From the NCBI GenBank assembly GCA_022709365.1, contig JAKLIY010000014.1:1-64000 (forward strand): a stretch of 64,000 nucleotides of DNA, in the 5' to 3' direction. Each line of letters begins with the position of its first letter. Position 1 is the first letter of the stretch. Below, piece after piece: positions 6,604 to 36,974 of the stretch. A program made the position numbers and the translations under genes. The notes under the pieces were generated by a model. That model made no database searches. It was not told the DNA's origin and worked only from the letters and a program-made list of their open reading frames with translations. Origin of the DNA: Pseudomonadota bacterium. Its GTDB lineage: Bacteria > Pseudomonadota > Gammaproteobacteria > Competibacterales > Competibacteraceae.

Positions 6604-7437
6604 TTAATGTCCGGTGCCAGGACTGGGCAAACGGCGCTCCAGCCAATTCACTACCAGCGACAGGCTGGTCGTCAATGCCAGATAAAGCGCGGCAACGGTG
6701 AACCACAGCTCAAAGGTCATAAACGTGTCGGCGATCAGATTGCGCCCCTCGGTCGTCAAATCAGCGACGGCGATGACGCTGACCAGGGCGGAGTGCTTGA
6801 TGAGCGAAACCGCCAGTCCGGTTAACGGCGGCAGCACCAGACGGATGGCCTGCGGCAAAATGACGAAGCGATGAATCGCATGGGATGACAGACCGAGGGC
6901 GCGTCCTGCTTCCCATTGGCCACGGGGAACCGCTTCGATGCCGGCGCGGAATATTTCCGCAGCAAAAGCGCCCTCGAAAAGGGCCAGCGCCAAGACTGCG
7001 GCGACAAAGCGGTCGAGGTCGAGGATCGGCGCCAGGATGAAGTAGACCAGATAGAGCTGCACCAACATCGGGGTATTACGGACGATCTCGACATAGAGGC
7101 GCGCGGCGGCATGGCCGGCCCAGGATGTGGAGCGTTGCAACAGTGCAGCGGTCAGCCCAAAGAAGACCGTCAACAATAAACTCCAGCCGGTCAGTTCCAG
7201 CGTGACGCCCATCCCGTACAACAGCGGGCCTGGATAAAATGCGCCATCCTCGATGCGGTAGAGATACTGGGGAATCCGGTACCATTGCCAGTTATAGTGC
7301 AGAGCGCCGGCGCCCTCGACGATCAACCAGCTCAGTCCCAACAGGACCGCCAGAAACGCCAGGGTATCGAACACCCGCCGCCAACGGCGTCGACGCCGGC
7401 ACAAACGGTGTATCGTGGTTATGCTCATGGCTGGCAA
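6604..7437 (-). CDS. Polar amino-acid ABC transporter permease (HisQ type)
   Basis: A 277-residue permease, first of the minus-strand pair. It has the EAA loop EAGRALGLSSHAIHRFVILP and the family segment VRNTPMLVQLYLVYF. Its N-terminal region after the first helix (HYNWQWYRIPQYLYR) resembles the same region of the second permease (HYNWNWQLIPGYLIR), which suggests duplication of one ancestral gene. It is transcribed divergently from the D-lactate-dehydrogenase-type gene across 169 bp, so the two units may share regulation. The cognate ATPase is not in the window. Confidence 0.87.
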   Translation of the reverse strand: MPAMSITTIHRLCRRRRRWRRVFDTLAFLAVLLGLSWLIVEGAGALHYNWQWYRIPQYLYRIEDGAFYPGPLLYGMGVTLELTGWSLLLTVFFGLTAALLQRSTSWAGHAAARLYVEIVRNTPMLVQLYLVYFILAPILDLDRFVAAVLALALFEGAFAAEIFRAGIEAVPRGQWEAGRALGLSSHAIHRFVILPQAIRLVLPPLTGLAVSLIKHSALVSVIAVADLTTEGRNLIADTFMTFELWFTVAALYLALTTSLSLVVNWLERRLPSPGTGH

Positions 7438-11464: not shown

Positions 11465-12514
11465 CTAGGAAAACGCAACAGTGCGTTTTTCTGCGTTGCT
11501 CTGCACAGCTAATTCAATGATGCGGATCGTATTTCGCGCTTCTTCCGGTTTGACGATCAGCTCGGCTTCTCCCCGGATCGCCTGGTAGACATTCTCATAG
11601 TAGGCCGGATAACTCCCCCGTGCCGTTTCGATTTTTCCCTGAAAATGCAGGTCGCCGATCTGGGTATTGAGGGTTCCCCACGCATCCTCCGGCTCCATGC
11701 CCCACTCTGGCTCCTGCGGCGACCGCCCGCCCTTTAGTGCGTCTTCTTGCGGATCAACCCCGTATTTCACGAAAGAGCCTTCCGTGCCATGCAAGGCAAA
11801 CCGGGGACCGGGCTGGCGCACCAGCAACCCGGCCTTCAGGGTCACTTTCAGGTCGTCATAATGAAGGATCAGTTCAAACTGATCGTCAGCTTTTCCGGCG
11901 TCTCGTTGACTGCGGATATCCGCGGTGACCCTCCGGGGCAACCCGAACAACACCTGCGCCTGATCAATGAGATGCGGACCGAGATCGAACAGGACACCGC
12001 TTCCGGGCCCCGCCGTTTCCCGCCAGGCGCGCTCCGGGCTGAAATAGTTCCGAAAGCGGTCGAAATGCGATTCATACTCGACCAGCCGCCCGAGATAGCC
12101 CTGTTTCACGATCTGGCTGACCGTCTGAAAGTCGCCATCCCAGCGCCGGTTTTGAAAGGCGCTGACGACTTTGTGCTGTTGACGCGCCAGATCAATGAGT
12201 TCCTGCGCCTGCGCCGATGTCAGGGTAAAGGGTTTGTCCACCACGACATGCTTGTCGGCCAGAAGCGCCTGGCGAGCCAATTCAAAGTGGGAGCTGCTGG
12301 GCGTGGCGACTACGATCAATTCGATCTTGTTATCCGCGAACAGGGTAGCGGCTTCGCTGGCAACCTCGACCCACGGATACCGCTCACGCGAGGTCTGACC
12401 GCGCCGCTCCACGACCCGGCTGAGTTGTAAGTGAGGAACGGCCGTGATCACCGGCGCATGAAAAACCCGTCCGGCCATCCCGTACCCAATCAAGCCTACT
12501 TTCATCTCGTGCAT
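11465..12514 (-). CDS. Gfo/Idh/MocA family NAD(P)-dependent oxidoreductase
   Basis: About 349 residues from the chosen ATG. That start follows GGAGGAAATACC and places the Rossmann motif GLIGYGMAGRVFHAP near the N-terminus; an upstream in-frame ATG would add 42 non-conserved residues. Further family marks are VVATPSSSHFELA, VVDKPFT (the E/DKP motif) and a C-terminal dehydrogenase domain with FDLGPHLIDQA. The closest remembered relatives are the YdgJ/IolW group acting on sugars or inositols. It stands alone, convergent with the binding-protein gene. Behind it lies a scar of the uronate regulatory locus, so a sugar role is plausible but unproven. Confidence 0.83.
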   Translation of the reverse strand: MHEMKVGLIGYGMAGRVFHAPVITAVPHLQLSRVVERRGQTSRERYPWVEVASEAATLFADNKIELIVVATPSSSHFELARQALLADKHVVVDKPFTLTSAQAQELIDLARQQHKVVSAFQNRRWDGDFQTVSQIVKQGYLGRLVEYESHFDRFRNYFSPERAWRETAGPGSGVLFDLGPHLIDQAQVLFGLPRRVTADIRSQRDAGKADDQFELILHYDDLKVTLKAGLLVRQPGPRFALHGTEGSFVKYGVDPQEDALKGGRSPQEPEWGMEPEDAWGTLNTQIGDLHFQGKIETARGSYPAYYENVYQAIRGEAELIVKPEEARNTIRIIELAVQSNAEKRTVAFS

Positions 12515-12544
12515 GGTATTTCCTCCGCCAGCAATTTCATGGTC

Positions 12545-12845
12545 CGCAAAAAACGATAGATGGTCGCCTTGGGCATGGCATGGCAAGCCGTACCGAGAGT
12601 TCGGAGATGTCCGCGGGCAGGATTTTACCATCTCGGGCACGATGAACTTGTAGATCGTGCGCCGGTTGCTGGTGTTATCACGATGCTCCAGGGGTCGACG
12701 ACCTGGGTGCGACCAAAATTTTTGAAACGACGTTTACACTTTTCAATACGCTATTCTATAGTTTAAAAAATGGTTTCGATTGGGTACGGATATTTTTTCA
12801 GCATACCGCTTTTCCGAAACTCTAACCCAAGAAATCCAGAGCGTA
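12545..12845. repeat. Collapsed partial copy of the iclR-kduI-promoter locus
   Basis: Three consecutive fragments match, in order and orientation, pieces of the locus at 21.26-23.31 kb. 12545-12610 resembles the iclR segment at 21263-21328 (shared core GGTCGCCTTGGGCATGG). 12628-12680 resembles the kduI segment at 22634-22690 (shared GATCGTGCGCCGGTTGCTGG). 12705-12845 resembles the kduI/kdgF intergenic region at 23175-23305 (shared TTTTTGAAACGACGTTTACA). The copy lacks kduD and most of both flanking genes. This explains most of the roughly 415-bp gap between the oxidoreductase start and the next small gene; 12846-12929 shows nothing recognisable. Confidence 0.8.
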
Positions 12846-12929
12846 TGGAAGTTCCGTCACGCGCTGAATCTGCTCGCTGTCGTACCACCTGCCGCGCATC
12901 GCGCGGATCGACTGAGGTAGTGAGGAATT

Positions 12930-13175
12930 ATGATGACTCTCCGCATCGGACCTTGGACTGGAAAAAGGTCGCATCGCCGCAGCGATAGACTTCCCACGCC
13001 CGTTCCGCCGAAATTCGACGACAAGCTCATCGCTAACGAGGCTTGCCCACACTGCCAGCGGGATTTGACTGAGTATCGATTCACCACCGGCGATGGCCTG
13101 CCCATCATCACCTATCATTGTGCAGAACACGACGACGTGATCCCCATGCATGGCACCATCGTGCATGACCTATAA
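12930..13175 (+). CDS. Small hypothetical protein upstream of aceE
   Basis: An 81-residue reading frame preceded by GTGAGG and ending 15 nt before the aceE start. The C-terminal half has CPHC followed after about 22 residues by YHCAEHDD, which could hold one metal ion, but a full zinc ribbon would need another pair. The N-terminal 30 residues are basic and low in complexity. I do not recognise a family. Its tight position at the head of the pyruvate dehydrogenase operon supports it being translated. An alternative is a shorter protein starting further in. Confidence 0.45.
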   Translation: MMTLRIGPWTGKRSHRRSDRLPTPVPPKFDDKLIANEACPHCQRDLTEYRFTTGDGLPIITYHCAEHDDVIPMHGTIVHDL

Positions 13176-13190: not shown

Positions 13191-15848
13191 GTGGAAATAA
13201 ATCGTGATCTGGATCCGCTGGAAACCCAGGAATGGCTTGACGCCCTGCGAGCCGTTCAGCAACACCTAGGCCCGGAACGGGCCAACTTTCTGGTCGACAA
13301 GCTGGTACAGGAGGCACGACGCGAAGGCATCTATATCCCCGCGTCGCTGACCACCGCCTACCGCAACACCCTGGTTCCCGAGAAAGAGGAACGTTCTCCG
13401 GGCGACCGGGACATCGAGCACAAGATCCGCTCCGCCATCCGCTGGAACGCAGTGGCCATCATCCTGCGCGCCAATAAAGAATCGTCCGAACTGGGTGGCC
13501 ACATCGCCAGTTTCCAGTCATCCGCGCTGCTCTACGACATCGGCTTCGGCCACTTCTGGCACGCGCCGACCGAGGACCATGGCGGCGACCTGATCTACTT
13601 CCAGGGCCACATCGCACCGGGCATCTACGCCCGGGCGTTTGTCGAAGGCCGGCTGACCGAGGAACAACTGCTCAATTACCGCCAGGAAACCGAAGGCAAG
13701 GGCATCTCCTCCTACCCGCACCCGTGGCTGATGCCGGAGTTCTGGCAGTTCCCCACCGTCTCCATGGGGCTGGGGCCGCTGATGGCCATCTATCAGGCCC
13801 GGTTTCTGAAATACCTCGATGGGCGTGGACTGGCCAAAACCGAAGGGCGAAAAGTGTGGGCGTTCCTGGGCGACGGCGAGTGCGACGAGCCGGAATCGCT
13901 GGGGGCCATCTCGATGGCGGGCCGCGAAAAGCTGGACAATCTCATTTTCGTCATCAACTGCAATTTGCAGCGTCTGGACGGTCCGGTGCGCGGCAACGGC
14001 AAGATTATCCAGGAACTGGAATCGGTATTTCGCGGCGCCGGCTGGAATGTGATCAAGTCGGTCTGGGGCCGGGGCTGGGATCGCCTGCTGGCCAAGGATC
14101 AGACCGGACTGCTGTTGAAGCGCATGGAGGAATGCGTCGACGGCGAGTACCAGGACTTCAAGTCCAAGAACGGCGCTTACGTCCGCGAACACTTCTTCGG
14201 CAAGTATCCGGAATTGCGGGAACTGGTTGCGGACATGACCGATGACGATATCTGGGCGCTGCGCCGTGGCGGCCACGACTCGACCAAGGTGTTCGCCGCC
14301 TATGCCGCGGCGGTGAAGCACCAGGGTCAGCCGACGGTGATTCTCGCCAAGACGGTCAAGGGCTATGGCATGGGCGAGTCGGGCGAAGGGCAGATGATCG
14401 CCCACCAGGCCAAGAAGATGACCAGCGACGCGCTCCGGCAATTTCGCGATCGCTTCGAGATCCCCGTTACGGACGAGCAACTGGCGGAGATCCCGTTCAT
14501 CCGGTTCCCGGAAGGCAGCCCGGAACTGAACTATCTGCGCGAGCGCCGCCAGGCGCTGGGCGGCTATCTGCCCAGCCGCCGGGTCAAGTCCACCGCACTC
14601 GAAATTCCGCCGCTGGCGAACTTCACGCGCTTGCTCAAGGCGTCGGGCGAACGCGAAATCTCGACGACCATGGCCCTCGTCCAGATGCTCGGCACGCTGG
14701 TGCGGGACAAGGCCCTCGGCAAATACGTCGTGCCCATCATGCCCGACGAGTCGCGCACCTTCGGTATGGAGGGTATGTTCCGGCAACTCGGCATCTATTC
14801 CGCCGTCGGCCAGCTCTACAAGCCGCAGGATGCCGACCAGCTCATGTATTACCGTGAGGACAAGTCGGGCCAGGTGTTGCAGGAAGGCATCAACGAGGCG
14901 GGCGCCATGTCGTCCTGGCTCGCGGCGGCGACGTCCTACAGCACCAACAATCTGCCGATGATCCCGTTCTACGTCTACTACTCGATGTTCGGCTTTCAGC
15001 GGTTCGGCGACCTGGCCTGGGCGGCGGGCGATCTGCGCGCGCGCGGCTTCCTGATCGGCGGTACGGCGGGCCGCACCACGTTGAACGGCGAAGGTCTGCA
15101 ACACGAGGACGGCCACAGCCATGTCCTGGCTTCGACCATTCCCAACTGCGTCGCCTACGATCCAACATTTGCCTACGAAGTCGTGGTCATCATCCGCGAA
15201 GGCTTGCGCCGCATGGTGCAAGAGCAGGAAGACGTCTATTTCTACCTCACTGTGATGAACGAGAACTACGCGCACCCCGAAATGCCGGAGGGCGCGGAGG
15301 CGGGCATCGTCAAGGGGATGTATCTGTTCCAGGACGGCGGCAAGTCCCAGGCGCTCCGCGTGCAACTGCTCGGCTGCGGCGTCATCCTGCGCGAGGTGAT
15401 CGCTGCGGCGGAGCTGCTGCGGGAGGACTTCAACATCACCGCCGACGTCTGGAGCGTCACCAGCTTCAACGAACTGCGACGCGACGGTCTCAGCGCCGAA
15501 CGCTGGAATCTGCTGCACCCGTCGCAACCGCCCCGGAAGAGCTATATCGAAACCTGTCTGGAAGGACACACGGGGCCGGTGGTCGCGTCCACCGACTACA
15601 TGCGCACCTTCGCCGATCAGGTTCGTGCCTACATCCCGAGGCGCTACATCACCCTGGGCACCGACGGCTTCGGTCGCAGCGACTACCGGGTCCAGTTGCG
15701 CCGCTTCTTCGAGGTGAACCGGTACTACGTTGCCGTCGCCGCTCTCAAGGCGCTGGCCGACGAGGGCCAGATCAAGGTCGAACAGGTCGAGGAAGCCATC
15801 CGCAAATACGGCCTCGATACCGAGCGGCCTGATCCCTGGACGGTTTGA
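13191..15848 (+). CDS. aceE: Pyruvate dehydrogenase E1 component, homodimeric type
   Basis: An 885-residue E1 that decarboxylates pyruvate with thiamine diphosphate and transfers the acetyl group to AceF. The ThDP motif begins GDGECDEPE at residue 227 and ends about 28 residues on with INCNLQ. Other landmarks are the N-terminal block HIASFQSSALLYDIGF, a SYPHPWLMPEFWQFPTVSMG segment and the pyrimidine-domain stretch EGINEAGAMSSWLAAATSYS. The length equals that of E. coli AceE. The start codon is GTG, placed behind a strong site (GAGGAGGAG). It is the first enzyme gene of the operon, 39 nt before aceF. Confidence 0.97.
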   Translation: MEINRDLDPLETQEWLDALRAVQQHLGPERANFLVDKLVQEARREGIYIPASLTTAYRNTLVPEKEERSPGDRDIEHKIRSAIRWNAVAIILRANKESSELGGHIASFQSSALLYDIGFGHFWHAPTEDHGGDLIYFQGHIAPGIYARAFVEGRLTEEQLLNYRQETEGKGISSYPHPWLMPEFWQFPTVSMGLGPLMAIYQARFLKYLDGRGLAKTEGRKVWAFLGDGECDEPESLGAISMAGREKLDNLIFVINCNLQRLDGPVRGNGKIIQELESVFRGAGWNVIKSVWGRGWDRLLAKDQTGLLLKRMEECVDGEYQDFKSKNGAYVREHFFGKYPELRELVADMTDDDIWALRRGGHDSTKVFAAYAAAVKHQGQPTVILAKTVKGYGMGESGEGQMIAHQAKKMTSDALRQFRDRFEIPVTDEQLAEIPFIRFPEGSPELNYLRERRQALGGYLPSRRVKSTALEIPPLANFTRLLKASGEREISTTMALVQMLGTLVRDKALGKYVVPIMPDESRTFGMEGMFRQLGIYSAVGQLYKPQDADQLMYYREDKSGQVLQEGINEAGAMSSWLAAATSYSTNNLPMIPFYVYYSMFGFQRFGDLAWAAGDLRARGFLIGGTAGRTTLNGEGLQHEDGHSHVLASTIPNCVAYDPTFAYEVVVIIREGLRRMVQEQEDVYFYLTVMNENYAHPEMPEGAEAGIVKGMYLFQDGGKSQALRVQLLGCGVILREVIAAAELLREDFNITADVWSVTSFNELRRDGLSAERWNLLHPSQPPRKSYIETCLEGHTGPVVASTDYMRTFADQVRAYIPRRYITLGTDGFGRSDYRVQLRRFFEVNRYYVAVAALKALADEGQIKVEQVEEAIRKYGLDTERPDPWTV

Positions 15849-15887
15849 ATTCATCAGGATCGCCCAACGCCTCACGAGGAAGAACTA

Positions 15888-17450
15888 ATGAGCCAAACAG
15901 TCGAAGTCAAAGTCCCGGACATCGGCAACTTCACCGATGTGCCGATCATTGAAGTGCTGGTCAAGCCGGGTGACACCGTCAAGGCCGAAGATCCGCTGAT
16001 CACGCTGGAATCCGACAAGGCCACCATGGAAGTGCCTTCACCCGCCGCCGGAATCGTCAGGGAGATCAAAGTTCAAGTCGGCGACAAGGTGTCGGAAGGC
16101 ACACTGGTGTTGCTGCTCGCCAATGCGGATGCCGCCGCTACGCAGCCGATTCTGACCATAGCAACGGCGCCCGCACCGGTCAGCGCGCCGGGTGGGGTCG
16201 CCGAGGTTCGCGTCCCGGACATCGGCGATTTCAAGGATGTGCCGGTGATCGAAATCCTGGTCAAGCCGGGCGACACGGTGAAGGCTGAAGATGCGTTGAT
16301 CACGCTGGAATCCGACAAGGCGACCATGGACGTGCCCGCGCCGTTGGGTGGCGTGGTTGGAGAGATCAAGGTGCAAGTGGGTGAGAAAGTATCGGAAGGC
16401 ACGATCCTTCTCACGCTGGCCACTGGCGCTGCGGGTGTCGCGATCCCACCGGCGGTGGCCAGCGTGGCTCCAGCCGCTCCCACGCTCGCGGCGTCCGCGG
16501 TGGCCGCGCCCTCGACTGGATTCGACGAGGCCGTTTTCAAACTGGCTTACGCCGGACCGGGCGTGCGCAAGCTGGCGCGCAAACTGGGCGTCGATCTGGG
16601 CAAGATCAGGGGCAGCGGCAACAACGGCCGCATTCTCAAGGAGGATGTGGAGAGCTTCGCCAAGGGCGGCGCAGCGGCAGTCGCGCCGAGTGCGGTCGCC
16701 GGTGCTGGCGCGGGTCTCGACCTGCTGCCGTGGCCGCAGGTGGACTTCAGCAAGTTCGGGCCGGTGGAAAGCAAGCCGCGCTCGCGCATCAAGAAGATCT
16801 CGGCTGCCAATCTGCATCGCAACTGGGTGATGATTCCGCATGTCACCAATCACGACGAGGCCGACATCACCGATCTCGAAGCGTTCCGGGTCCAGCTCAA
16901 CAAGGAGATCGAGAAGAGCGGCGTCAAGGTGAGCATGCTCTCGTTCATGATCAAGGCAGCCGTCGCAACGCTGCAGAAATTCCCCGAGTTCAACGCCTCG
17001 CTCGACGGCGACAATCTGATCCTCAAGCAGTATTACCACATCGGCTTTGCCGCCGACACGCCCAACGGCCTGGTGGTGCCGGTCATCCGCGACGCCGATA
17101 AAAAGGGTGTGGTGGAGATCGCCAGGGAAATGGGCGAACTCGCCAAGCTGGCGCGCGAGGGCAAGCTCAAACCCGATCAGATGCAGGGCGGCACCTTCAC
17201 CATCTCCAGCCTGGGTGGGATCGGCGGCACCTACTTCACCCCGATCATCAACGCCCCGGAAGTGGCGATCATGGGGGTATGCCGGTCCTACTGGAAGCAG
17301 GTATCGCCGGATGGCCAGCAGTCGGCGTGGCGGTTCATCCTGCCGTTGTCGTTGTCTTGGGATCACCGGGTGGTCGACGGCGCGGGCGCGGCGCGCTTCA
17401 ACGTCCATTTCGCTAACCTGCTCGCCGATATGCGGCGCATCCTGATCTGA
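15888..17450 (+). CDS. aceF: Pyruvate dehydrogenase E2, dihydrolipoamide acetyltransferase
   Basis: A 520-residue E2 core. Two lipoyl domains are visible, with the lipoylated lysines in ESDKATM at residues 44 and 144, each followed by an Ala/Pro/Val-rich linker. Then comes the peripheral-subunit-binding domain (GVRKLARKLGVDL...GRILKEDV) and the catalytic domain ending with SLSWDHRVVDGAGAARF, whose His-493 and Asp-497 are the expected catalytic pair. Two lipoyl domains rather than one or three is a common number. The gene lies between aceE and the E3 gene, with the E3 ATG 12 nt after its stop. Confidence 0.96.
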   Translation: MSQTVEVKVPDIGNFTDVPIIEVLVKPGDTVKAEDPLITLESDKATMEVPSPAAGIVREIKVQVGDKVSEGTLVLLLANADAAATQPILTIATAPAPVSAPGGVAEVRVPDIGDFKDVPVIEILVKPGDTVKAEDALITLESDKATMDVPAPLGGVVGEIKVQVGEKVSEGTILLTLATGAAGVAIPPAVASVAPAAPTLAASAVAAPSTGFDEAVFKLAYAGPGVRKLARKLGVDLGKIRGSGNNGRILKEDVESFAKGGAAAVAPSAVAGAGAGLDLLPWPQVDFSKFGPVESKPRSRIKKISAANLHRNWVMIPHVTNHDEADITDLEAFRVQLNKEIEKSGVKVSMLSFMIKAAVATLQKFPEFNASLDGDNLILKQYYHIGFAADTPNGLVVPVIRDADKKGVVEIAREMGELAKLAREGKLKPDQMQGGTFTISSLGGIGGTYFTPIINAPEVAIMGVCRSYWKQVSPDGQQSAWRFILPLSLSWDHRVVDGAGAARFNVHFANLLADMRRILI

Positions 17451-17462
17451 GGAGAAGTAACC

Positions 17463-19241
17463 ATGGCAAATCTCGTCGAAGTCAAGGTACCCGATATTGG
17501 CGATTTCAAGGACGTGCCAGTCATCGAGATCCTAGTCAAGCCAGGCGATGCGGTGAAGGCCGAGGATGCGTTGATCACGCTGGAATCCGACAAGGCCACC
17601 ATGGACGTGCCTTCGCCCGGCGCGGGCGTGGTCGCGGAGATCAAGGTCAAGGTCGGCGACAAGCTCTCCGAAGGTTCGCTGATTCTGATGCTCGATGCGC
17701 AAGCGGGCGCTGGCGTGCAAACCGTGGCGCCCGCTGCCGCCCCGCCCGCCGCGCCAGTGACCGCGCCAGTGGTCGCGCCCGCTGCCGGCGCTTATACGGG
17801 CAGCGCCGACGTAGACTGCGAGATGCTGGTGCTCGGCGCGGGTCCAGGCGGTTATTCCGCCGCGTTCCGATCCGCCGATCTCGGCATGAAGACGGTGCTG
17901 GTGGAGCGTTACGCCACGCTGGGCGGCGTGTGCCTGAACGTCGGTTGCATCCCGTCGAAAGCGCTGCTGCACACCGCGGCGGCGATGGACGAGGTCAAGA
18001 TCATGGCGCACCACGGCATCGAGTTTGGCCCGCCCCGGGTGGACATCGACAAGCTGCGCGGCTTTAAGGAAGGCGTGGTCAAGAAGCTCACCGGCGGACT
18101 CGCAGGCATGGCCAAGGCGCGCAAGGTCGAAGTGGTGCGCGGCGTGGGCCGGTTCCTCGATCCGCACCATGTCGAAGTCGAACTGACCGAGGGAAACGGC
18201 CAGGACAAGACCGGGGCTAAAAAAGTTGTGCGCTTCCAGAAGGCGATCATCGCCGCCGGTTCCCAAGCCGTGAAGCTGCCCTTCATGCCGGAGGACCCGC
18301 GCGTGGTGGATTCCACTGGCGCGCTCGAACTCATGGGCATCCCGAAACGGATGCTGGTGGTGGGCGCGGGCATCATCGGCCTGGAGATGGTCACCGTCTA
18401 CTCCGCGCTCGGCGCCCGCATCGACGTGGTGGAAATGCTGGATAACATGATGCTCGGCGCTGATCGGGATCTGGTCAAGGTGTGGGAGAAGATGAACGCC
18501 CACCGCTTCGACCATGTCATGCTGAAGACCAAGACCGTGTCCGCCGAGGCCACTCCCGAGGGTATCCGGGTGGGCTTCGAGGGCGAGAAGGCACCGAAGG
18601 AGCCGCAGGTTTACGACCTGGTGTTGGTGGCGGTAGGGCGCAGTCCCAACGGCGGGAAGATCGCCGCCGATAAGGCGGGCGTGGCGGTGAGCGAGCGCGG
18701 GTTCATCGCGGTGGATAACCAGATGCGCACCAACGTCCCGCATATCTTCGCCATTGGCGACATCGTCGGTCAGCCCATGCTCGCCCACAAGGCAGTGCAC
18801 GAGGCGCACGTGGCGGCGGAAGCCGCCGCCGGACACAAGGCCTATTTCGACGCACGCCAGATTCCCTCGGTGGCCTACACCGATCCGGAGGTCGCTTGGG
18901 CAGGCAAGACCGAGGAGCAGTGCAAGGCTGAAGGCATTAAATACGGCAAGGCGGTGTTCCCGTGGGCCGCTTCGGGCCGCGCCATCGCCAACGGCCGCGA
19001 CGAGGGCTTCACCAAGCTGCTGTTTGACGAGGCGACGCACCGTTGCATTGGCGGCGGCATCGTCGGCACCCACGCCGGCGATCTGATCGGCGAAGTCTGC
19101 CTGGCGGTGGAAATGGGCTGCGATCCGGTCGATATCGGCAAGACCATCCATCCGCATCCGACGCTCTGCGAATCGGTCGGCATGGCCGCCGAGGTGTTTG
19201 AAGGCGTCTGCACCGACTTGCCGCCGGCGAGGAAGAAGTAG
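17463..19241 (+). CDS. lpdA: Dihydrolipoamide dehydrogenase E3 with N-terminal lipoyl domain
   Basis: A 592-residue E3. Residues 1-80 form a lipoyl domain (lysine 44 in ESDKATM), followed by an Ala/Pro linker. The flavoprotein then begins with [13 protein letters not shown] (FAD), the redox-active disulfide [13 protein letters not shown] with Cys-157 and Cys-162, an NAD-binding [13 protein letters not shown] and the C-terminal [15 protein letters not shown] carrying the catalytic His-Glu pair. It reoxidises the lipoyl arms of the pyruvate dehydrogenase complex. The added lipoyl domain is known from some Neisseria-like and related E3 enzymes. It is almost the same as the second lipoyl domain of AceF, which implies duplication or gene conversion. 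Confidence 0.96.
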
Positions 19242-20563: not shown

Positions 20564-20624
20564 GCGCCCAAATCCTCAATTTACCCGAATGAACGCTTAA
20601 CGTATGGGACCCAACCAAGGAAGG

Positions 20625-21428
20625 CTAGCCTTCGTCGAGCGGATAGGACGGGCACCCCAACTCCAACGAAACCGCGCGGCCGGCCGCGATGACCAGCGCG
20701 GCATACTCGTCCTGCCGGGCCGGATCGAAGCGAAATGCCGGGAACGAGACGCTCAACGCGGCCACGACACTATTCCAGTGGTCGAAAATAGGCGCCGCCA
20801 TGCAGATCATGTGCTCCTCGAATTCTTCATAATCCAGGCCGTACTTGCGCTCGCGGGTGCGCACGAGTTCCTCCAGGAACTGTGTCGGGGTGGCAATGCT
20901 GTTCTCGCGAAACCGGGTAAAACACATCCCAGCTATGATGGCGTCGCGCCGCTCCGGTCTCTCCCAGGCCAACAGCGCCTTGCCTAGCGCGGTGGCGTGG
21001 ACCGGCGCGCGCCTGCCGATCCGGGAATACATGGCAAGGCTGTACTTCGCGTCGACCTTGTCAATGTAGATGACCTCATGATCGACCAGAACGCCGAGAT
21101 GAACGGCCTCCCCGATTTGGTCAGACAGAATCCGCATCTGATGTCTGGCTAGCTCGGTCAGGTCCAAGTGCTGCATCGCCTGGGTCCCCAGCTCGAACAA
21201 CTTCAGTGTCAGGCTGTAGCGCTCGCTCTCGGACTCCTGGCGGACGAAACCCAGCTCTTTCATCGTCTGCAGGAAGCGGTAAATGGTCGCCTTGGGCATG
21301 GCCAGTCGTACCGAAAGTTCGGAGATGCCGGTTTCCTTCCGCTCACCCAAGGCCGCCAGGAGACCAAAAACCCTGAGCACGGCGGCGACGGGTTCGGGTG
21401 GATTGCGATGATGGCTATCTTCATCCAT
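20625..21428 (-). CDS. IclR-family transcriptional regulator of uronate catabolism
   Basis: A 267-residue IclR protein. The winged-helix N-terminus reads AAVLRVFGLLAALGERKETG then ISELSVRLAMPKATIYRFLQ, and the effector domain contains GEAVHLGVLVDHEVIYIDKV and LGKALLAWE. KdgR, the regulator of 2-keto-3-deoxygluconate metabolism, belongs to this family, and the gene directly follows kduD and kduI on the same strand. I infer it represses the surrounding uronate genes in response to a keto-deoxy sugar acid. The start has AAGGAAGG upstream. A shrunken piece of its HTH-coding region recurs near 12.55 kb. Confidence 0.88.
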   Translation of the reverse strand: MDEDSHHRNPPEPVAAVLRVFGLLAALGERKETGISELSVRLAMPKATIYRFLQTMKELGFVRQESESERYSLTLKLFELGTQAMQHLDLTELARHQMRILSDQIGEAVHLGVLVDHEVIYIDKVDAKYSLAMYSRIGRRAPVHATALGKALLAWERPERRDAIIAGMCFTRFRENSIATPTQFLEELVRTRERKYGLDYEEFEEHMICMAAPIFDHWNSVVAALSVSFPAFRFDPARQDEYAALVIAAGRAVSLELGCPSYPLDEG

Positions 21429-21513
21429 TTGAGTTTCCTTCCTTGATTCTGAAAAGTTTGATTACCGAATTCGCGCCGCTGACCGTCGCGGCGTCACTCA
21501 CGCCAGGGGCCAC

Positions 21514-22272
21514 TCAGCGCGCCAGCCAGCCGCCGTCCACTGCAAGCGTGTAGCCGTTCACATAGTCCGATGCCGGCGAGGCAAGGAAGACCACCGGACC
21601 GGCCAGATCTTCCGGCAGGCCCCAGCGGTTCGCGGGAATGCGCCCCAGGATTTCTGCGTTGCGCTGCTCGTCCGCACGTAGTGCCGCCGTGTTATCGGTG
21701 GCCATGTAGCCGGGCGCAATCGCGTTGACGTTGATGCGTTTCGACGCCCATTCGCAGGCGAGCAGGCGGGTCAGCCCCACGACCCCGCTCTTTGATGCGG
21801 TGTAGGATGGTACCCGGATGCCGCCCTGAAACGACAGCATTGAGGCGATGTTGATGATCTTGCCAGGCGAATCCCGGGCGATGAACCGGCGTGCGGCGGC
21901 CTGGGACAGAAAAAACACCGCCTTGAGATTGAGGTTGACGACATCATCCCAATCTTTTTCCGAGAAATTCAGCGAATCCTCGCGCCGGATGATCCCGGCA
22001 TTATTCACCAGGATGTCAAGGCGTCCGAACGCCTGGCAGGCTTCCTCAACGACGGGCTGCACGCACGAAGTATCCGCCAGGTTGGCGCGGATGGCGTGGA
22101 ACCCACGCCCGAGGGCCGTCACCGCCGTGGCTGTCGCGGTCGGCGCCGAAGTGTTGACGCCCACAATGTCTGCACCCGCCTGGGCCAGCGCGACCGCCAT
22201 GCCCTGCCCCAGCCCGGTACTGCATCCGGTGACTATCGCCACCTTTCCAGACAAGTCAAAGAGTTTCAGCAT
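21514..22272 (-). CDS. kduD: 2-dehydro-3-deoxy-D-gluconate 5-dehydrogenase, SDR family
   Basis: A 252-residue short-chain dehydrogenase, equal in size to E. coli KduD. It has the cofactor loop IVTGCSTGLGQGMA, the NNAGIIRRED segment, the catalytic PSYTASKSGVVGLTRL and the C-terminal VFLASPASDYVNGYTLAVDGGW. KduD reduces the diketo acid formed by KduI to 2-keto-3-deoxygluconate. The ATG chosen follows GGAGG by 8 nt; a GTG further out would include that ribosome site in the coding sequence. It is 36 nt downstream of kduI and 85 nt upstream of the IclR start. Confidence 0.92.
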   Translation of the reverse strand: MLKLFDLSGKVAIVTGCSTGLGQGMAVALAQAGADIVGVNTSAPTATATAVTALGRGFHAIRANLADTSCVQPVVEEACQAFGRLDILVNNAGIIRREDSLNFSEKDWDDVVNLNLKAVFFLSQAAARRFIARDSPGKIINIASMLSFQGGIRVPSYTASKSGVVGLTRLLACEWASKRINVNAIAPGYMATDNTAALRADEQRNAEILGRIPANRWGLPEDLAGPVVFLASPASDYVNGYTLAVDGGWLAR

Positions 22273-22308
22273 TCTGTTTACCTCCACATCAGGAGAAAAG
22301 GGGATCCA

Positions 22309-23145
22309 TCAATAGAGGTCGGTCATCGCGACCGGGTCCATATCGTCGAACGTCTGGTTCTCACCGACCATGCCCCAAATGAAGGTGTAACTCCGGGAGC
22401 CGACCCCCGAGTGAATCGACCAACTGGGGCTGATGACCGCCTGCTCGTTCCGAACCACGAGGTGGCGCGTCTCGTTCGGCCTGCCGAGGAGATGGAACAC
22501 CACCGCATCCGGCGCCATATCAAAGTAGAAATACACTTCCATCCGCCGTTCGTGAGTATGACACGGCATCGTGTTCCACACGCTGCCCTCGTCCAATACG
22601 GTCATGCCCATGGTCAGTTGGCAGGACTTGACCACCTCGGGCACGATGAATTTGTAGATCGTGCGCCGGTTGCTGGTGTTGGCGTGCCCCAGGGTCGTGG
22701 GGAAAGCCTGTTCGAGCGTGATCTTGCGGTGTGGAAAGGCGCAATGCGCCGGTGCGCTGTTGAGATAGAGCCTGGCGGGATGGTTGGCGTCCACGCTGCG
22801 GAAGCTGAGTTCCCTCGCTCCAGCGCCGACATACAGAGCCTCGCGCGTTTCCAGCGCGAAGCATTCGCCATCCACCTGGACCTGGGCCGGCCCGCCGATG
22901 TTGATCAAACCGAGTTCGCGCCGGGCCAGAAAATACTCCGCGCCGATCTGCCTGGCGATGCGGGTGTCGAGCGTGACAAGCTGGCGCACCGGCATCACGC
23001 CGCCGACGATGATACGGTCTATGTGGCTGTAGGTGAACGAGATCTCGTCGGGCATAAACAACCCCTCGACGAGAAACTCACGGCGCAGCCCGCCGGTGTC
23101 GAGGGTCCTGAAATGGTCGCTGTGGATTGATTGTCTGACTTCCAT
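22309..23145 (-). CDS. kduI: 5-dehydro-4-deoxy-D-glucuronate isomerase
   Basis: A 278-residue cupin isomerase, the same length as E. coli KduI. The metal site is visible as [19 protein letters not shown], and the N-terminus [17 protein letters not shown] is typical. It converts 5-keto-4-deoxyuronate, released from pectin, alginate-like or glycosaminoglycan oligomers, to the diketo acid used by KduD. The ATG behind AGGAG is preferred over an upstream start that adds 13 residues. It is the first gene of the minus-strand unit kduI-kduD-iclR and divergent from kdgF. Confidence 0.94.
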
Positions 23146-23184
23146 CACGATTCTCCTGGGGTCAGCGATCTGTGCGCCACCCAA

Positions 23185-23240
23185 ATTTTTGAAACGACGT
23201 TTACATTTTTCAATACGCTATTCTATAGTATAAAAAGCTG
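23185..23240. promoter_or_regulatory. Divergent promoter with a candidate KdgR-type operator
   Basis: The kduI-kdgF gap holds an AT-rich block in otherwise GC-rich DNA. At its core, GAAACGACGTTT contains the odd-centred palindrome AAACG-A-CGTTT flanked by T runs, of the kind bound by KdgR-like IclR regulators. Beside it, TATTCTATAGTATAA could supply a -10 element. A near copy of the block lies at 12718-12772. Operator identity is inferred from context and symmetry. Confidence 0.5.
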
Positions 23241-23309
23241 ATTTCGATCCAGCAGGCTGATTTTCTCAGCGTACCGATTTTCTGGAACTCCAACCGAAAA
23301 AAGTGATGT

Positions 23310-23648
23310 ATGAAAGACTGCTTTTACGAGGATGCGCGGTGCCCGTGGATCGACATTGAACCGGGAATCCGCCGGAAGATCGTCGGCCACACACCGAACC
23401 TGCTGGCCGCCGTAGTGCTGTTCGACAAAGGCGCGGTCGGCACCGTACACGGTCATGCCGGGCACGAGCAGATCGCCTATGTACTGGCCGGCGCGTTCGA
23501 AGTGGAGGTGGAAGGCGAAAAGCGCGTCTTGCGGGCGGGTGACGCCTTCATAGCGGATAAAAACGTCAGGCATGGCGTGGTTGCGCTTGAACAGGGCAGC
23601 CGGTTGCTGGACGTCTTCTCCCCCCGGCGGGACGACTTTATCGAATGA
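23310..23648 (+). CDS. kdgF: KdgF-type cupin, unsaturated uronate linearisation
   Basis: A 112-residue single-domain cupin. The metal-binding motif is HGHAGHEQIAYVLAGAFEVE and the second motif is GDAFIADKNVRHG. KdgF proteins speed the opening of 4,5-unsaturated monouronates to the linear keto form that KduI uses, so its place opposite kduI across the shared promoter fits well. The length matches the family. It leads the plus-strand catabolic run, with uxaB beginning 16 nt downstream. Other small cupins share this fold, so the exact activity rests on context. Confidence 0.82.
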   Translation: MKDCFYEDARCPWIDIEPGIRRKIVGHTPNLLAAVVLFDKGAVGTVHGHAGHEQIAYVLAGAFEVEVEGEKRVLRAGDAFIADKNVRHGVVALEQGSRLLDVFSPRRDDFIE

Positions 23649-23664
23649 ATTGAGAGAGGTTGCC

Positions 23665-25161
23665 ATGTTCGCGCTCAACCGTTCCACGCTGCCCGATCCG
23701 CCGAGGCCGACTGACGCTCCACCGAAGACCGGGGTGCTGCAAATCGGCGATGGTAATTTCCTGCGCGCTTTCGCCGACTGGATGATCGATATCGCCAACG
23801 AAGCCGGCGTACTTGACGCTGCCGTGATCCTCGCGCCGCCACGGTCCGCCGGCATCATCGACCCGCTCAATGCCCAGGATGGCCTGTTCACCGTTCTATC
23901 CCGTGGCGTGGTAGCGAGCACGCCCACCACGTCGGTGCGGATCGTGCGCTGCGTGACGCACGGCGTCGATCCGCGCCAGGATCCCGCAGCCCTGTTCGCC
24001 GGCGCACGCGACCCGAAGACGCGCTTCGTGATCTCCAACACCACCGAGGCGGGTATTGTCTATCGCGAACAGCCGCGTTCTCCCGGCGAATGGCCGCGCA
24101 GCTTTCCCGCACAGGTCGCGGCGCTGTTGTTCGAGCGGTTCCAGGCGCTGGGCGGCCAGCCGGAAACTGGACTCGTGTTCCTGCCCTGCGAATTGATCGA
24201 AGCGAACGGCGCCACCCTGCGCGACATCGTGCTGCGGCATGCGCGCGACTGGGCGCTACCCCAGGAGTTCAGCGACTGGGTCACGCGACACAATGATTTT
24301 CTCAACACTCTGGTCGACCGCATCGTGCCGGGTTATCCGGCGACCGAGGCCGATAAGCTGTTCGCCGAATTCGGTTACACCGATGCCCTGCTGGTGGCCG
24401 CCGAACCCTTTCATCTGTGGGTCATCGAGGGGCCGGAGCGCCTCGCCAACGAGTTCCCGCTCCACAAGGCCGGCCTCAACGTGGTGTGGACCGACGACCT
24501 GCAACCCTACCGTGCGAGCAAGGTGCGCATCCTCAACGGCGCGCATACCGCCAGCGCCTTGGCAGCGTTTTGCGGCGGACTGGACACGGTTGGCGAAATG
24601 ATGAACGACAGCGTGACGTCACGTTTCCTCCAACATGTGGTGTTCGATGAGATCGTACCCTTCGTGCCCCTGCCCGAAGCCGAACGTCGGCGCTATGCCG
24701 AGAGCGTACTGGAACGTTTCGCCAATCCCTACATCCGCCACGAACTGCTCTCGATCACGCTCAACTCGGTGTCGAAGTGGAAGGTGCGGGTATTGCCTTC
24801 GCTGCTGGACTATGCTCATACCCATGGCCGGGTGCCGGCTGGACTGGCGTTTTCGCTGGCTGCGCTGTTGTGGTTTTATCGAGGCCGGTTCGACGCGGCG
24901 GGTGAATTCGTCGGCCAGCGTGAAGCTGGGAGCTATCCGATCCGCGACAGCCACGACGTGCTGGACCTCTTCGACGCCGCCTGGCGTGACCCAGCCAACG
25001 TCCGCCCAACCGACGCGGCACCGGCGCTACTCGCCGATGCGCGGCTGTGGGGCATGGATCTTAATGCAGTGCCCGAACTCGCGTCGCGGGTCGCGAACGC
25101 GCTCGACCGGATCGAGGCGGTCGGGATGCTGCCGGCGCTGGCCGAAACGCTCACCCGCTGA
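23665..25161 (+). CDS. uxaB: Tagaturonate reductase (altronate oxidoreductase)
   Basis: A 498-residue member of the polyol-specific long-chain dehydrogenase family. The N-terminal Rossmann part begins GVLQIGDGNFLRAFADWM and continues with VISNTTEAGIVY. The catalytic segment is NSVSKWKVRVLPSLLDY with the expected lysine. UxaB reduces tagaturonate to altronate after UxaC acts on galacturonate. The FLRAFADWM form points to tagaturonate rather than fructuronate reductase. The ATG after GAGAGG is chosen; the open frame extends further upstream through kdgF without conservation. It precedes kdgK by 29 nt. Confidence 0.9.
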   Translation: MFALNRSTLPDPPRPTDAPPKTGVLQIGDGNFLRAFADWMIDIANEAGVLDAAVILAPPRSAGIIDPLNAQDGLFTVLSRGVVASTPTTSVRIVRCVTHGVDPRQDPAALFAGARDPKTRFVISNTTEAGIVYREQPRSPGEWPRSFPAQVAALLFERFQALGGQPETGLVFLPCELIEANGATLRDIVLRHARDWALPQEFSDWVTRHNDFLNTLVDRIVPGYPATEADKLFAEFGYTDALLVAAEPFHLWVIEGPERLANEFPLHKAGLNVVWTDDLQPYRASKVRILNGAHTASALAAFCGGLDTVGEMMNDSVTSRFLQHVVFDEIVPFVPLPEAERRRYAESVLERFANPYIRHELLSITLNSVSKWKVRVLPSLLDYAHTHGRVPAGLAFSLAALLWFYRGRFDAAGEFVGQREAGSYPIRDSHDVLDLFDAAWRDPANVRPTDAAPALLADARLWGMDLNAVPELASRVANALDRIEAVGMLPALAETLTR

Positions 25162-25190
25162 CCCACTGAAAAACCAACCCGGAGGCTGGA

Positions 25191-26159
25191 ATGACCTCAC
25201 TCCGTCGAATCGCGCTGTTTGGCGAATGCATGATCGAGCTGCGCGGCCAGGTTTTCGGCGCGATGCAGCAGGGCTTCGGCGGCGACACCCTGAATACCGC
25301 CATCTATCTGGCCCGGCTGTGCCGCGACCAGGACATCCGGGTTTCCTACGCCACCGCGCTGGGTATCGATGTTTTCAGCGACTACATGATCGCTGCCTGG
25401 CAGGCGGAGGGCATCGATACCTCGCTGGTCCGCCTGCTCAGCAACCACCTGCCTGGCTTGTACGCCATTCAGGTCGATCCCTCTGGAGAGCGCCATTTCT
25501 TTTACTGGCGTGACACCAGCACCGCACGCAGCTATTTCGATGCCCCGAACACCCCTCTGGAGGATGCGGTCAGCGAGCTGTCGGCGTTCTATCTCAGCGG
25601 CATCAGTCTGGCGATCCTGCCACCCGAAGGCCGGGAGCGGCTGCTGGCCACGATGGCGCGGGTGCGCGCCAACGGGGGCATGGTGGCGTTCGACAACAAT
25701 TTCCGTCCCCGCTTGTGGCCAAACCTCAGCGAGGCCCGGACGCTCTATGACCGCGCGTATGCCCTGAGCGACCTGGTGCTCATCACGCTGGACGACGAGA
25801 TGGCGCTGCGGGGCGAAATCGACGCCGACCAGGCGCTGGCTAATGTGCTTGCACTCGAAGTCCCGGAAGTGGTCATCAAGCGCGGCGTTCAGCCCACCCT
25901 CGTCAGAATCGCCGGGACGCCGCCCCTGGCCGTCCCGGTCGAAACCGTCCCCCGCGTCGTCGACACGACGGCGGCGGGAGATTCCTTCGCCGGCGCCTAT
26001 CTGGCCATGCGCTTGACCGGAACGCCCCCCGCGACCGCCGCTCGCGCCGCCAACCGCATGGCGGCGGTGGTCATCCAACATCCCGGCGCCATCATTCCGG
26101 CGGAGGCCATGCCCACCCCAACCGTCCTTCTAACTACCGAAGCCACACCCCCTGTTTAA
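25191..26159 (+). CDS. kdgK: 2-keto-3-deoxygluconate kinase, PfkB family
   Basis: A 322-residue PfkB sugar kinase. The start [15 protein letters not shown] and the substrate loop [16 protein letters not shown] are typical of KDG kinases. The catalytic and anion-hole motif reads [15 protein letters not shown], with the base Asp in GDSF. It phosphorylates 2-keto-3-deoxygluconate to KDPG, the substrate of Eda. It sits between uxaB and uxuA with strong Shine-Dalgarno sequences on both sides (GGAGG; GAGGAGG). A second PfkB kinase of the same pathway is encoded at 37.0 kb. Confidence 0.92.
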
Positions 26160-26185
26160 GCCTGTCCACCCGAGGAGGATACATA

Positions 26186-27235
26186 ATGAAAATGTCATTT
26201 CGATGGTACGGTGATTCCGATCCAGTGTCACTGGATTACATCCGCCAGATTCCCGGAGTAGAGAACATCGTGTCCGCGGTCTACGACGTACCCGTGGGCG
26301 AAGTCTGGCCGGTTGAAAACATCCAGGCGCTCAAGGCCAGGATCGAATCGCACGGCCTGCGCTTTGAGGTGGTCGAGAGCGTGCCGGTACATGAAGACAT
26401 CAAGCTGGGCAAGCCCAGTCGCGACCGCCTGATCGAAAATTACTGCCAAACGCTGCGCAATCTGGCCCCCTGCGGCATCAAGGTGGTCTGCTACAACTTC
26501 ATGCCGGTGTTCGACTGGACCCGCACCACGCTGGAAATGGAGTTGCCGGACGGCTCGAAAACGCTGGGGTTCGACATGGCGACCGTCAACCAGATCGATC
26601 CCTCGGAGGGCATCCAGTTGCCCGGCTGGGATACTAGCTACAAGCCCGACGAACTCAAGGCCCTGCTGGCCGAATACGCCAAAATCGACGAAGAAAAACT
26701 GTGGTCGCATCTCGAATACTTCCTGCACCGGGTGATCCCGGTCGCCAAGGAAGTCGGCATCAAAATGGCGATTCATCCAGACGATCCGCCCCGCCCCATC
26801 TTTGGCCTGCCGCGCATCGTCAAGAACCGGGATGACCTGGCCCGCCTGCTGGCTATCGAGGACACCCCCGCCAACGGCCTGACCTTGTGTTCGGGTTCGC
26901 TGGGAGGCGATTTTTACAACGACATCGCCGCCATGGTGCGCGAGTTCGCTGGCCGGGGCCGCATTCATTTCGCCCACCTGCGCAACGTCAAGGTCAACGA
27001 AGCCGGCGACTTTTACGAAACCGGCCATCGTTCCGAGGATGGTTCGCTCGATATGGCCGAAATCGTGCGGGCCTACTACGAGGCCGGCTACGAGGGCTAT
27101 GTCCGCCCGGACCACGGCCGGATGATCTGGGGTGAAACCGGCAAACCCGGCTACGGCCTCTACGACCGGGCGCTCGGCGCGGTGTACCTGAACGGCCTGT
27201 GGGAAGGCATCGCTAAAGCGGAAAGCCGCCAATAA
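26186..27235 (+). CDS. uxuA: D-mannonate dehydratase
   Basis: A 349-residue TIM-barrel dehydratase turning mannonate into 2-keto-3-deoxygluconate. The N-terminus [20 protein letters not shown] is diagnostic, as are [18 protein letters not shown], the metal-site stretch [13 protein letters not shown] and [13 protein letters not shown] near the end. The size fits the shorter, Bacillus-like form rather than the roughly 394-residue E. coli one. Next in line, 14 nt on, is an SDR gene that likely makes its substrate mannonate. Confidence 0.96.
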
Positions 27236-27249
27236 GCGTGGAGAATCCA

Positions 27250-28104
27250 ATGAAACTGCCATTCAAAATTGACCTGAGCAACAAGGTGGCCGTGGTAACG
27301 GGCGGCAGCGGCGTGTTGTGTTCGGAACTCGCCGCGGCGCTGGCGGCGAACGGCGCCAAGGTCGCGGTGCTGGGTCGCAACGCCGAGGCGGCGGAAAAGA
27401 CTGCGGCTCGACTAAGAGAGTTCGGCACCACTGCCATCGGCATCAGCGCCAATGTACTCGAACGTGGGGAACTGGAAGCTGCCGCCGAACGGGTGGCGAA
27501 GGAACTGGGTCCCTGCGATTTGCTGGTGAACGGTGCCGGCGGCAATAATCCCAAGGGCACCACCAGCAGGGACTGGTTCGAGCCGGCAGATCTCTTCGAT
27601 AAATCGCTGACGACCTTCTTCGATCTCGATCCCAAGGGCGTCGAATTTGTCTTCAACCTGAATTTCCTGGGCACGCTGTTGCCCACCCAGGTCTTCGCCC
27701 AGCAGATGATCGGCCACACTGGCTGTTCGATCATCAATATCTCGTCCATGAGCGCCTTTTGCCCGCTGACCCGGATCCCGGCTTACAGCGGCGCCAAGGC
27801 GGCGGTCAACAATTTCACCCAGTGGCTGGCCGTCCATTTCTCGAAAGTGGGCATCCGGGTCAACGCCATCGCGCCCGGCTTTTTCCTGACCGCGCAGAAC
27901 CATAAGTTGCTCATCGACGAAGCCACGGGCGAGTTCACGGCGCGCGCCAAAAAAATCGTCGAGTACACGCCGATGGGCCGCTTCGGCGAATCTCACGAAC
28001 TGGTCGGCGCGTTGCTCTGGCTGGCTTGCGAAGAAGGCTCGGGTTTTGTCAACGGCGTGGTCGTGCCGATTGATGGCGGGTTCTCCGCCTACTCGGGCGT
28101 CTGA
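27250..28104 (+). CDS. SDR-type D-mannonate oxidoreductase (fructuronate reductase)
   Basis: A 284-residue short-chain dehydrogenase with VAVVTGGSGVLCSELAAAL, VNGAGGNNPKGT and the catalytic IPAYSGAKAAVNNF. This larger SDR group, often next to uxuA, reduces fructuronate to mannonate in place of the MDR-type UxuB. Tight coupling with uxuA here supports that role. The ATG preceded by GTGGAG is chosen; a GTG four codons earlier overlaps that ribosome site. It ends the first enzyme run, and the TRAP transporter begins 56 nt later. Confidence 0.85.
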   Translation: MKLPFKIDLSNKVAVVTGGSGVLCSELAAALAANGAKVAVLGRNAEAAEKTAARLREFGTTAIGISANVLERGELEAAAERVAKELGPCDLLVNGAGGNNPKGTTSRDWFEPADLFDKSLTTFFDLDPKGVEFVFNLNFLGTLLPTQVFAQQMIGHTGCSIINISSMSAFCPLTRIPAYSGAKAAVNNFTQWLAVHFSKVGIRVNAIAPGFFLTAQNHKLLIDEATGEFTARAKKIVEYTPMGRFGESHELVGALLWLACEEGSGFVNGVVVPIDGGFSAYSGV

Positions 28105-28160
28105 TCCATCGAGAATTCTTTTTTTACCCCCGACATAACTAATCCAAAGGAGAATCCATC

Positions 28161-29144
28161 ATGCTTCGTCCGTTATTGTCCAAACTTTGTGTGTGTGCAT
28201 GGGCAGCGGGTCTGATCGCTGCCCCGGTCATTGCCCAAAGCGCCACAGCCTTCAAGGCCGCCGATGTCCATCCGAAAGGCTATCCGAACGTCGTGGCCGT
28301 CGAGAATATGGGCAAGAAGCTCGATGCTGCCACGAACGGCCGCCTGAAGATCCAGATGTTCCCCGGCGGCGTGCTCGGCGACGAGAAGGTGATGATCGAG
28401 CAGACCCAGATCGGCGCGATCCAGATGCTGCGGGTTTCCCTGGGCGGGATCAGTCCGGTCGTTCCCGAAGCCAACGCCTTTAGCCTGCCCTATCTGTTCC
28501 GCAACCAGGAACACATGCGCAAGGTGATCGACGGTCCGATCGGTCAGGAACTGCTCGACAAGATCACCGCCAGCCCCGGCAAGCTGGTCGGGCTGGCCTG
28601 GATGGATAGCGGTTCGCGCAATGTCTACACCAAAAAGCCGATCAAGACCCCGGCCGACCTGAAGGGCCTGAAGATCCGCATGCAAGGTAACCCAATGTTC
28701 ATCGACACCATGAACGCCATGGGCGGCAACGCCATTGCCATGGGCTTCGGCGAACTCTACAGCGCCTTGCAGACCGGCGTGGTGGACGGCGCCGAAAACA
28801 ATGAACCCAGCTATTTCACCCAGAATCACTTCACGGTGGCCAACGTTTACTCTCTCACCGGCCACCTCAGCATTCCCGAGATCCTCGTGTTCTCCAAGCC
28901 CGCGTGGGACAAGCTCGCCAAAGAAGATCAGGAACTGATCAAGAAGCTCGCCCGTGAGGCGCAGATGGAACAGCGCACCCTCTGGGATCAGAGCGTCGCG
29001 GACGCGACCACCAAGCTCAAAGCCGCCAACGTGACCTTTGTGGAAGTCGATAAAAAACCTTTCATCGAGGCCACCGCTCCGGTTCGCGAGAAGTACGGCG
29101 CGCCCTTCGCTGACCTAGTCAAGCGTGTCCAGGCCGTCGAGTAA
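28161..29144 (+). CDS. dctP: TRAP transporter substrate-binding protein
   Basis: A 327-residue DctP-family periplasmic protein. A signal peptide is clear (MLRPLLSKLCVCAWAAGLIA, cleavage near VIAQS). The family segment KGLKIRMQGNPMFIDTMNAM carries the arginine that pairs with the substrate carboxylate, and GFGELYSALQTGVVDGAENN follows. In this setting the likely ligands are hexuronates such as glucuronate or galacturonate, as known for related DctP proteins. It begins the DctPQM unit. A strong site, AAAGGAG, precedes the ATG. Confidence 0.93.
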   Translation: MLRPLLSKLCVCAWAAGLIAAPVIAQSATAFKAADVHPKGYPNVVAVENMGKKLDAATNGRLKIQMFPGGVLGDEKVMIEQTQIGAIQMLRVSLGGISPVVPEANAFSLPYLFRNQEHMRKVIDGPIGQELLDKITASPGKLVGLAWMDSGSRNVYTKKPIKTPADLKGLKIRMQGNPMFIDTMNAMGGNAIAMGFGELYSALQTGVVDGAENNEPSYFTQNHFTVANVYSLTGHLSIPEILVFSKPAWDKLAKEDQELIKKLAREAQMEQRTLWDQSVADATTKLKAANVTFVEVDKKPFIEATAPVREKYGAPFADLVKRVQAVE

Positions 29145-29167
29145 CAGCGTTTAAAAGTTGTTCACTC

Positions 29168-29250
29168 CCCTCTCCCGCCAGCGGGAGAGGGATAAGGGTT
29201 ACAGTCTCAAAGGCTACACCCTAACCCTTTCCCCTGCGCCAAGGAGAGAG
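29168..29250. repeat. Palindromic GC-rich repeat between dctP and dctQ
   Basis: A perfect palindrome with 11-bp arms (CCCTCTCCCGC, spacer CA, complement) occupies 29168-29191. A second, partly complementary half follows (AACCCTTTCCCCTGCGCC...GAGAGGGG), so the whole 115-bp gap can fold back. It belongs to the dispersed repeat group seen throughout the window and may tune the relative expression of dctP over dctQM. Confidence 0.7.
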
Positions 29251-29258
29251 GGGACTGA

Positions 29259-31120: not shown

Positions 31121-31193
31121 CGTGCGCCACCGAATGATTCGAACGCATTGAACCTACCCACAACAATATTCAAAACATTTTGAGGATCGCAGC

Positions 31194-32927: not shown

Positions 32928-33007
32928 ACAGGAACGCCATCAGCAACCTGAAACTTTCCCGCTGCCGGAGTACTCGGCGGCGGGATTCCACTGAACTGGA
33001 GGGCAAC

Positions 33008-34420: not shown

Positions 34421-34434
34421 GAAGCTGTATAGAT

Positions 34435-34518
34435 GTAGGGCGGGTTAGCGGAGCGTAACCCGCCTTTAACGGGGATTCGGCCCATGGCGGGTTACGGCTC
34501 ACGCCTAACCCGCCCTAC
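34435..34518. repeat. Palindromic repeat after uxaC
   Basis: GTAGGGCGGGTTAG at 34435-34448 is exactly complementary to 34505-34518; the inside also pairs in part (GTAACCCGCC with GGCGGGTTAC), so the element folds into a long hairpin. It could end the uxaC transcript or limit read-through into uxaA. Confidence 0.75.
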
Positions 34519-34561
34519 GATGGGTCTTTGCAAAAACCAACCTATTGATTATGCGAGATAG

Positions 34562-34586
34562 GTAGGGTACGCAATGCGTACCCTAC
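34562..34586. repeat. Perfect 12-bp palindrome upstream of uxaA
   Basis: GTAGGGTACGCA and its complement flank a single A. It lies about 15 nt before the uxaA ribosome site. Another copy type of the dispersed palindromes; a terminator-like role is possible but there is no U tract. Confidence 0.65.
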
Positions 34587-34615
34587 TGCTCTGATCCTTT
34601 GAGGAGGAAATGGAT

Positions 34616-36970: not shown

Positions 36971-36974
36971 TCGC

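Follow-up and report, generated by a model that had tools for sequence, protein, structure and literature searches.

In the 64,000-bp window analysed here (the whole stretch, positions 1 to 64,000 of contig JAKLIY010000014.1, from a member of the Competibacteraceae), a short block resembling pieces of an iclR-type regulator gene, of kduI and of the kduI promoter is located between an oxidoreductase gene and an accessory pyruvate dehydrogenase (PDH) operon, 10 kb from an intact version of the same genes. This raises the question of what the block represents, how two copies came to flank the PDH operon, and whether the promoter that it carries still controls the adjacent genes.

Composition and limits of the block

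The intact locus consists of kdgR-kduD-kduI (20625..23145, minus strand), of the bidirectional kduI/kdgF promoter (23146..23309), and of a cupin gene in the kdgF position (23310..23648, plus strand), which is the first gene of a uronate operon; its regulator was identified as KdgR by NCBIfam NF011671 (305 bits, cut-off 275). The block is a direct repeat of this locus, which lies beyond the PDH operon, and contains between 12528 and 12834 three pieces that correspond, in order and orientation, to kdgR, kduI and the kduI/kdgF promoter at 21251-23302, with 80-93% identity. When the window was compared with itself, the kdgR remnant (12528..12609, minus strand; codons ~34-60, HTH region) matched 21251-21327 at 66/82 positions (80%), with one frameshifting 5-nt insertion, and the kduI remnant (12610..12676, minus strand; codons ~156-178) matched 22613-22680 at 90-93%, with a 61-nt core at 93%. 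The third piece, 12677-12834, matched the kduI start and promoter at 23144-23302 at 129 of the 159 positions (81%), with three differences in a 58-nt core; it begins with a kduI leader remnant (12677..12711, minus strand), whose start codon was destroyed at the junction (ATG to ATA). The gene kduD is wholly absent, and the reading frames are broken by the deletions, by the insertion in the kdgR piece and by the loss of the kduI start.

The three matches have BLAST E-values of 8e-36, 1e-17 and 7e-14 within the window. When aligned with the 4-kb intact locus, the kdgR, kduI and promoter pieces score 68, 81 and 141 bits; the highest score among 2000 other 326-nt stretches of the window is 52.5 bits, which excludes identity at chance level. 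No further copy was found in the 4.16-Mb genome beyond the scar and the intact locus. The collinear homology, the broken frames and an intact counterpart in a relative (see below) make it near certain that the block is the deletion scar of a collapsed second copy of a kdgR-kduD-kduI-kdgF locus. The sequence-only reading had already proposed a collapsed copy of the iclR-kduI locus flanking the pyruvate dehydrogenase region, with its fragments in this order and orientation, kduD missing and the promoter as the best-kept part, and on all these points it was borne out; the extent that it gave, 12545-12845, needs correction, as the scar starts at 12528 and ends at ~12882, for a total size of ~0.35 kb.

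The scar runs on to ~12882 because the kdgF leader is followed by the kdgF start codon (12846) and by a second kdgF piece corresponding to codons ~25-35 (leader, start and piece together 12770..12882, plus strand). This second piece matches at 22/33 nt, with its best placement at kdgF nt 72 in three genomes; it is short and moderately significant, 6 of 5000 random 33-mers scoring as well. It is followed by the 34-nt 3' end of a pyruvate kinase gene (12887..12920, plus strand, 88% identity). In the relative G042 this gene (Pfam PK) ends in an ATGA overlap with the start codon of znrib, a small gene upstream of aceE, and pyruvate kinase, znrib and aceE form an overlapping run, of which the window retains the pyruvate kinase tail only. 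The kdgF piece and this tail thus define the block as the joint of an old uronate locus with a pyruvate kinase/PDH operon, trimmed on both sides.

Intact counterparts and history of the two copies

kduI is rare in the family (4/39 genomes). The same-genus genome G002 carries on contig C650 an intact kduI-kduD-kdgR-oxidoreductase run, whose genes share one strand and whose last two are 36 nt apart; the oxidoreductase is orthologous (84-85% aa) to the window gene starting at 12517. Since this window gene adjoins the scar, the scar is the positional counterpart of the intact G002 locus, and the search among relatives did find an intact version of the second locus, beside the same oxidoreductase. 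The G002 contig starts inside kduI, and the kduI/kdgF promoter is not on it. The KdgR protein of this locus (L045, 1327-2133) is only 66% identical to that of the window, while the adjacent kduD and kduI show 87-88%; the G002 regulator alone looks replaced or fast-evolving. On the intact side, the window encodes from 20624 to 39077 a large uronate cluster, largely collinear with G002:C22, which contains kdgR-kduD-kduI, the kdgF-like cupin, uxuB, kdgK, uxuA, an SDR, TRAP and MFS transporters, uxaC, uxaA, a second PfkB-type sugar kinase and an aldose epimerase-like gene.

Compared with the intact genes, 12 of the 15 codon changes in the two coding fragments are synonymous, while random change predicts ~27% (P ~3e-5). 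The copies therefore diverged mostly while both encoded proteins, and the collapse was late; the differences are not spread over the codon positions as in a recent, neutrally decaying duplicate. The block is thus an older copy, displaced or retained for a long time, whose collapse came late, and not a young decaying duplicate; the arrival of a homologous locus that ousted the resident one is no less likely than a local duplication. The past duplication proposed by the sequence-only reading holds insofar as the second copy is real, but plain duplication with decay is not well supported, since the codon changes are mostly synonymous. A simple tandem duplication in place, with one of the copies then decaying gradually, would account for the direct-repeat layout around the PDH operon, and the remnant matches its own intact promoter at 142/181 positions, compared with 120/178 between the latter and that of G021 and 98/161 between it and that of L052. 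Such a history would nevertheless require a long phase with both copies working, because at most ~4 of the codon differences arose after the loss of coding function, and the kdgR fragment is as distant from the intact copy as the sequence of another genus (65/77 vs 66/77); we consider it unlikely.

Assigning the remnant to the G002 or the G021 lineage was attempted and abandoned, the sequence being too short to resolve them (kdgR piece 65/77 with its own copy, 61/77 with G021 and 61/77 with G002). Window positions 20624-28972 are collinear with G021 at 84.5%, and rpoB with its flanks shows ~81% between the same two genomes; as rpoB separates the genera poorly here (same-genus values of 79-84%), we make no claim on which lineage donated which copy. 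The record of L052 (G041:C395) is titled 'Phycisphaerales bacterium isolate GAO1', yet the genome is placed in the family of the window, and the name looks wrong. No tRNA gene, looked for as a test of tRNA-linked integration, was found in the window. Relatives of the accessory PDH operon are present in G005, G042, G044 and G046 (82-88% nt), and in the stretches read near them no orthologs of kdgR, kduD or kduI were found, with one distant SDR match in G042.

The promoter block and its neighbouring genes

The operator-promoter core of the scar (12712..12769) is identical to the intact copy at 55/58 positions and contains at 12723-12738 a KdgR-type operator, TGAAACGACGTTTACA, which is the same in the core of both copies. 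This operator includes GAAACGNCGTTT, the KdgR core published for gammaproteobacteria (Table 1, PMC8222616). Exactly two full operator sites are present in the 4.16-Mb genome, one in the intact promoter and one in the scar; matches with one mismatch occur on contigs C67 and C109. A perfect TGAAACAGCGTTTCA on C78 was rejected as a KdgR site: it lies inside a coding sequence, a reversed control pattern also gives two matches, and it was taken as chance. The operator overlaps sigma-70 hexamers, so that the site combines a consensus operator core and promoter elements in a genome that encodes the cognate KdgR. A kdgF-type promoter, TTTACA-18-TATAGT (12733..12762, plus strand), faces znrib-aceE and is conserved in G021, L052 and G044, and a weak kduI-type candidate (12718..12746, minus strand) faces the oxidoreductase; the promoter scan found two sites against 1.0 expected in shuffled sequences, which is weak evidence when taken alone. 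No Rfam families were found in the window, and the leader at 12769-12945 folds no better than shuffled sequences.

The core differs from the intact copy at 3/58 positions and the flanks at 35/111 (Fisher 7e-5), a contrast to which constraint on the intact copy is expected to contribute; with the flank rate halved to allow for this, P is 0.014. Among the columns invariant in three genera the scar retains 38/38 in the core and 31/35 in the flanks (P 0.05). The remnant core is closer to the intact core of the window than are the promoters of G021 (46/58) and L052 (45/58). Given the constraint on the intact copy and the possibility of a recent collapse, the pattern is suggestive of, but not decisive for, continued selection on the scar core after the collapse; the kduI fragment, which is surely non-functional, is kept nearly as well over its 61 nt.

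On the minus strand, the scar is directly followed by the oxidoreductase gene (11465..12517; Gfo/Idh/MocA family, PRK11579/YdgJ subfamily), which has its own GGAGG ribosome site. In G002 this gene closes the kduI-kduD-kdgR-oxidoreductase run, so the deletions leave it downstream of the same promoter, now at ~200 nt. On the plus strand follow znrib (12930..13175), which encodes an 81-aa protein with cysteine and histidine residues (CPHC and HCAEH motifs) and no Pfam or NCBIfam match, and the aceE-aceF-lpd operon (13191..19241); a second aceE (67% aa) is located on contig C68. Relatives of znrib occur in 21/39 genomes of the family, with a fixed position upstream of the accessory aceE in G042, G044 and G046. 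The lpd product has an N-terminal lipoyl domain and that of aceF has two, so that three lipoyl domains with 75-78% nt identity lie within 2 kb (15888-19241). With the pyruvate kinase gene lost, the scan detected a single promoter-like site on that strand upstream of znrib-aceE-aceF-lpd, the kdgF promoter; G044 and G046 also lack pyruvate kinase upstream of znrib, and a separate promoter of znrib-aceE could have escaped detection.

We propose, with a probability of about 0.6, that the block is a promoter-retaining deletion scar of an older uronate locus, whose spared promoter may drive the neighbours on both sides. The starting point would have been a kdgF-promoter-kduI-kduD-kdgR-oxidoreductase locus, with a second, homologous kdgR-kduD-kduI-promoter copy later, or still, present as a direct repeat beyond the accessory PDH operon, a layout that would result from single-crossover integration of a DNA circle or from unequal crossover. 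Deletions would then have removed all of kduD and the greater part of kdgR, kduI and kdgF from the older copy and, on the PDH side, the pyruvate kinase gene that stood upstream. The bidirectional promoter was probably spared because it continues to transcribe the oxidoreductase to the left and, in its new setting, also znrib-aceE-aceF-lpd to the right, and KdgR would repress both directions until a KDG-type uronate intermediate appears. Uronate breakdown yields pyruvate through KDG. A regulatory role of the scar promoter is plausible, and the influence on nearby genes suggested by the sequence-only reading can now be specified as acting on the oxidoreductase on one side and on the znrib-PDH operon on the other, with regulation as such predicted from the site. 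More tentatively, the deletions and the pyruvate kinase loss may have placed the accessory PDH operon and the oxidoreductase under KdgR in this lineage only, coupling pyruvate oxidation to uronate breakdown.

The same displaced-locus remnant could also be an inert scar that controls nothing important, its collapse being so recent that the operator has merely not yet decayed. The little-diverged kduI piece (93%), the mostly synonymous differences, which imply a late collapse, and the marginal P of the invariant-column test all agree with this. What makes us regard it as rather unlikely is that the core is better kept than its flanks, that the deletions stop on either side of the promoter, that after the pyruvate kinase loss the block is the one promoter-like site that the scan detected upstream of znrib-aceE on that strand, and that a promoter was retained in parallel in G044. 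There the kdg locus has collapsed around its promoter: the operator is kept, kduI and most of kduD are lost, and of uxuB no more than the end was detected; this fragment and one from the end of kduD lie on either side (L163, G044:C28, 6560-7560). Two operators, at 7017-7032 and 7336-7351 and ~320 nt apart, flank a short stretch similar to the end of a sodium/calcium exchanger (Pfam E 2e-4, below the Pfam cut-off). The promoter has thus been retained with loss of its genes at least twice, independently, in the family. The operator identity has also suggested a decoy, which would sequester KdgR from the intact promoter. This is very improbable because there is just one extra site, which would bind one KdgR dimer or tetramer with little titration expected, and the operator forms part of a complete promoter directed at genes on either side; with two full sites in the genome, the decoy proposed by the sequence-only reading finds poor support.

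Comparison with known systems

If the promoter is dead, the block is an ordinary pseudogene scar. If the proposed rewiring is true, KdgR control would link the formation of acetyl-CoA to uronate breakdown, and a regulon may gain members by gene loss around a kept promoter, not by a new operator arising through point mutation. As the intact promoter 10 kb away provides a built-in control, this rewiring is directly testable.

The operators of the gammaproteobacterial KdgR regulon have the form RWWGAAACGNCGTTTCAKKA (Rodionov 2004, as tabulated in PMC8222616). The scar site resembles them in its core, in the presence of KdgR in the genome and in the uronate genes that adjoin the operator; it differs in its right half, GTTTACA and not GTTTCA, in being a predicted site, and in that the neighbours of the site at 12723 are an oxidoreductase gene and a PDH operon. 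With the G002 locus on C650 the scar locus shares gene order, orientation and oxidoreductase, whereas the G002 locus is intact and no PDH operon is seen on its contig, which starts inside kduI. Deletion-born rearrangements and promoter capture are known in bacteria (e.g. abstracts of PMC12803068 and PMC5526668), and in such cases deletions join a promoter or gene piece to formerly more distant genes. In contrast to them, whole genes were removed here around a kept bidirectional promoter and the outcome is fixed in a natural genome, by a presumed mechanism. The kind of event is already known, and represents ordinary evolution with a testable regulatory twist.
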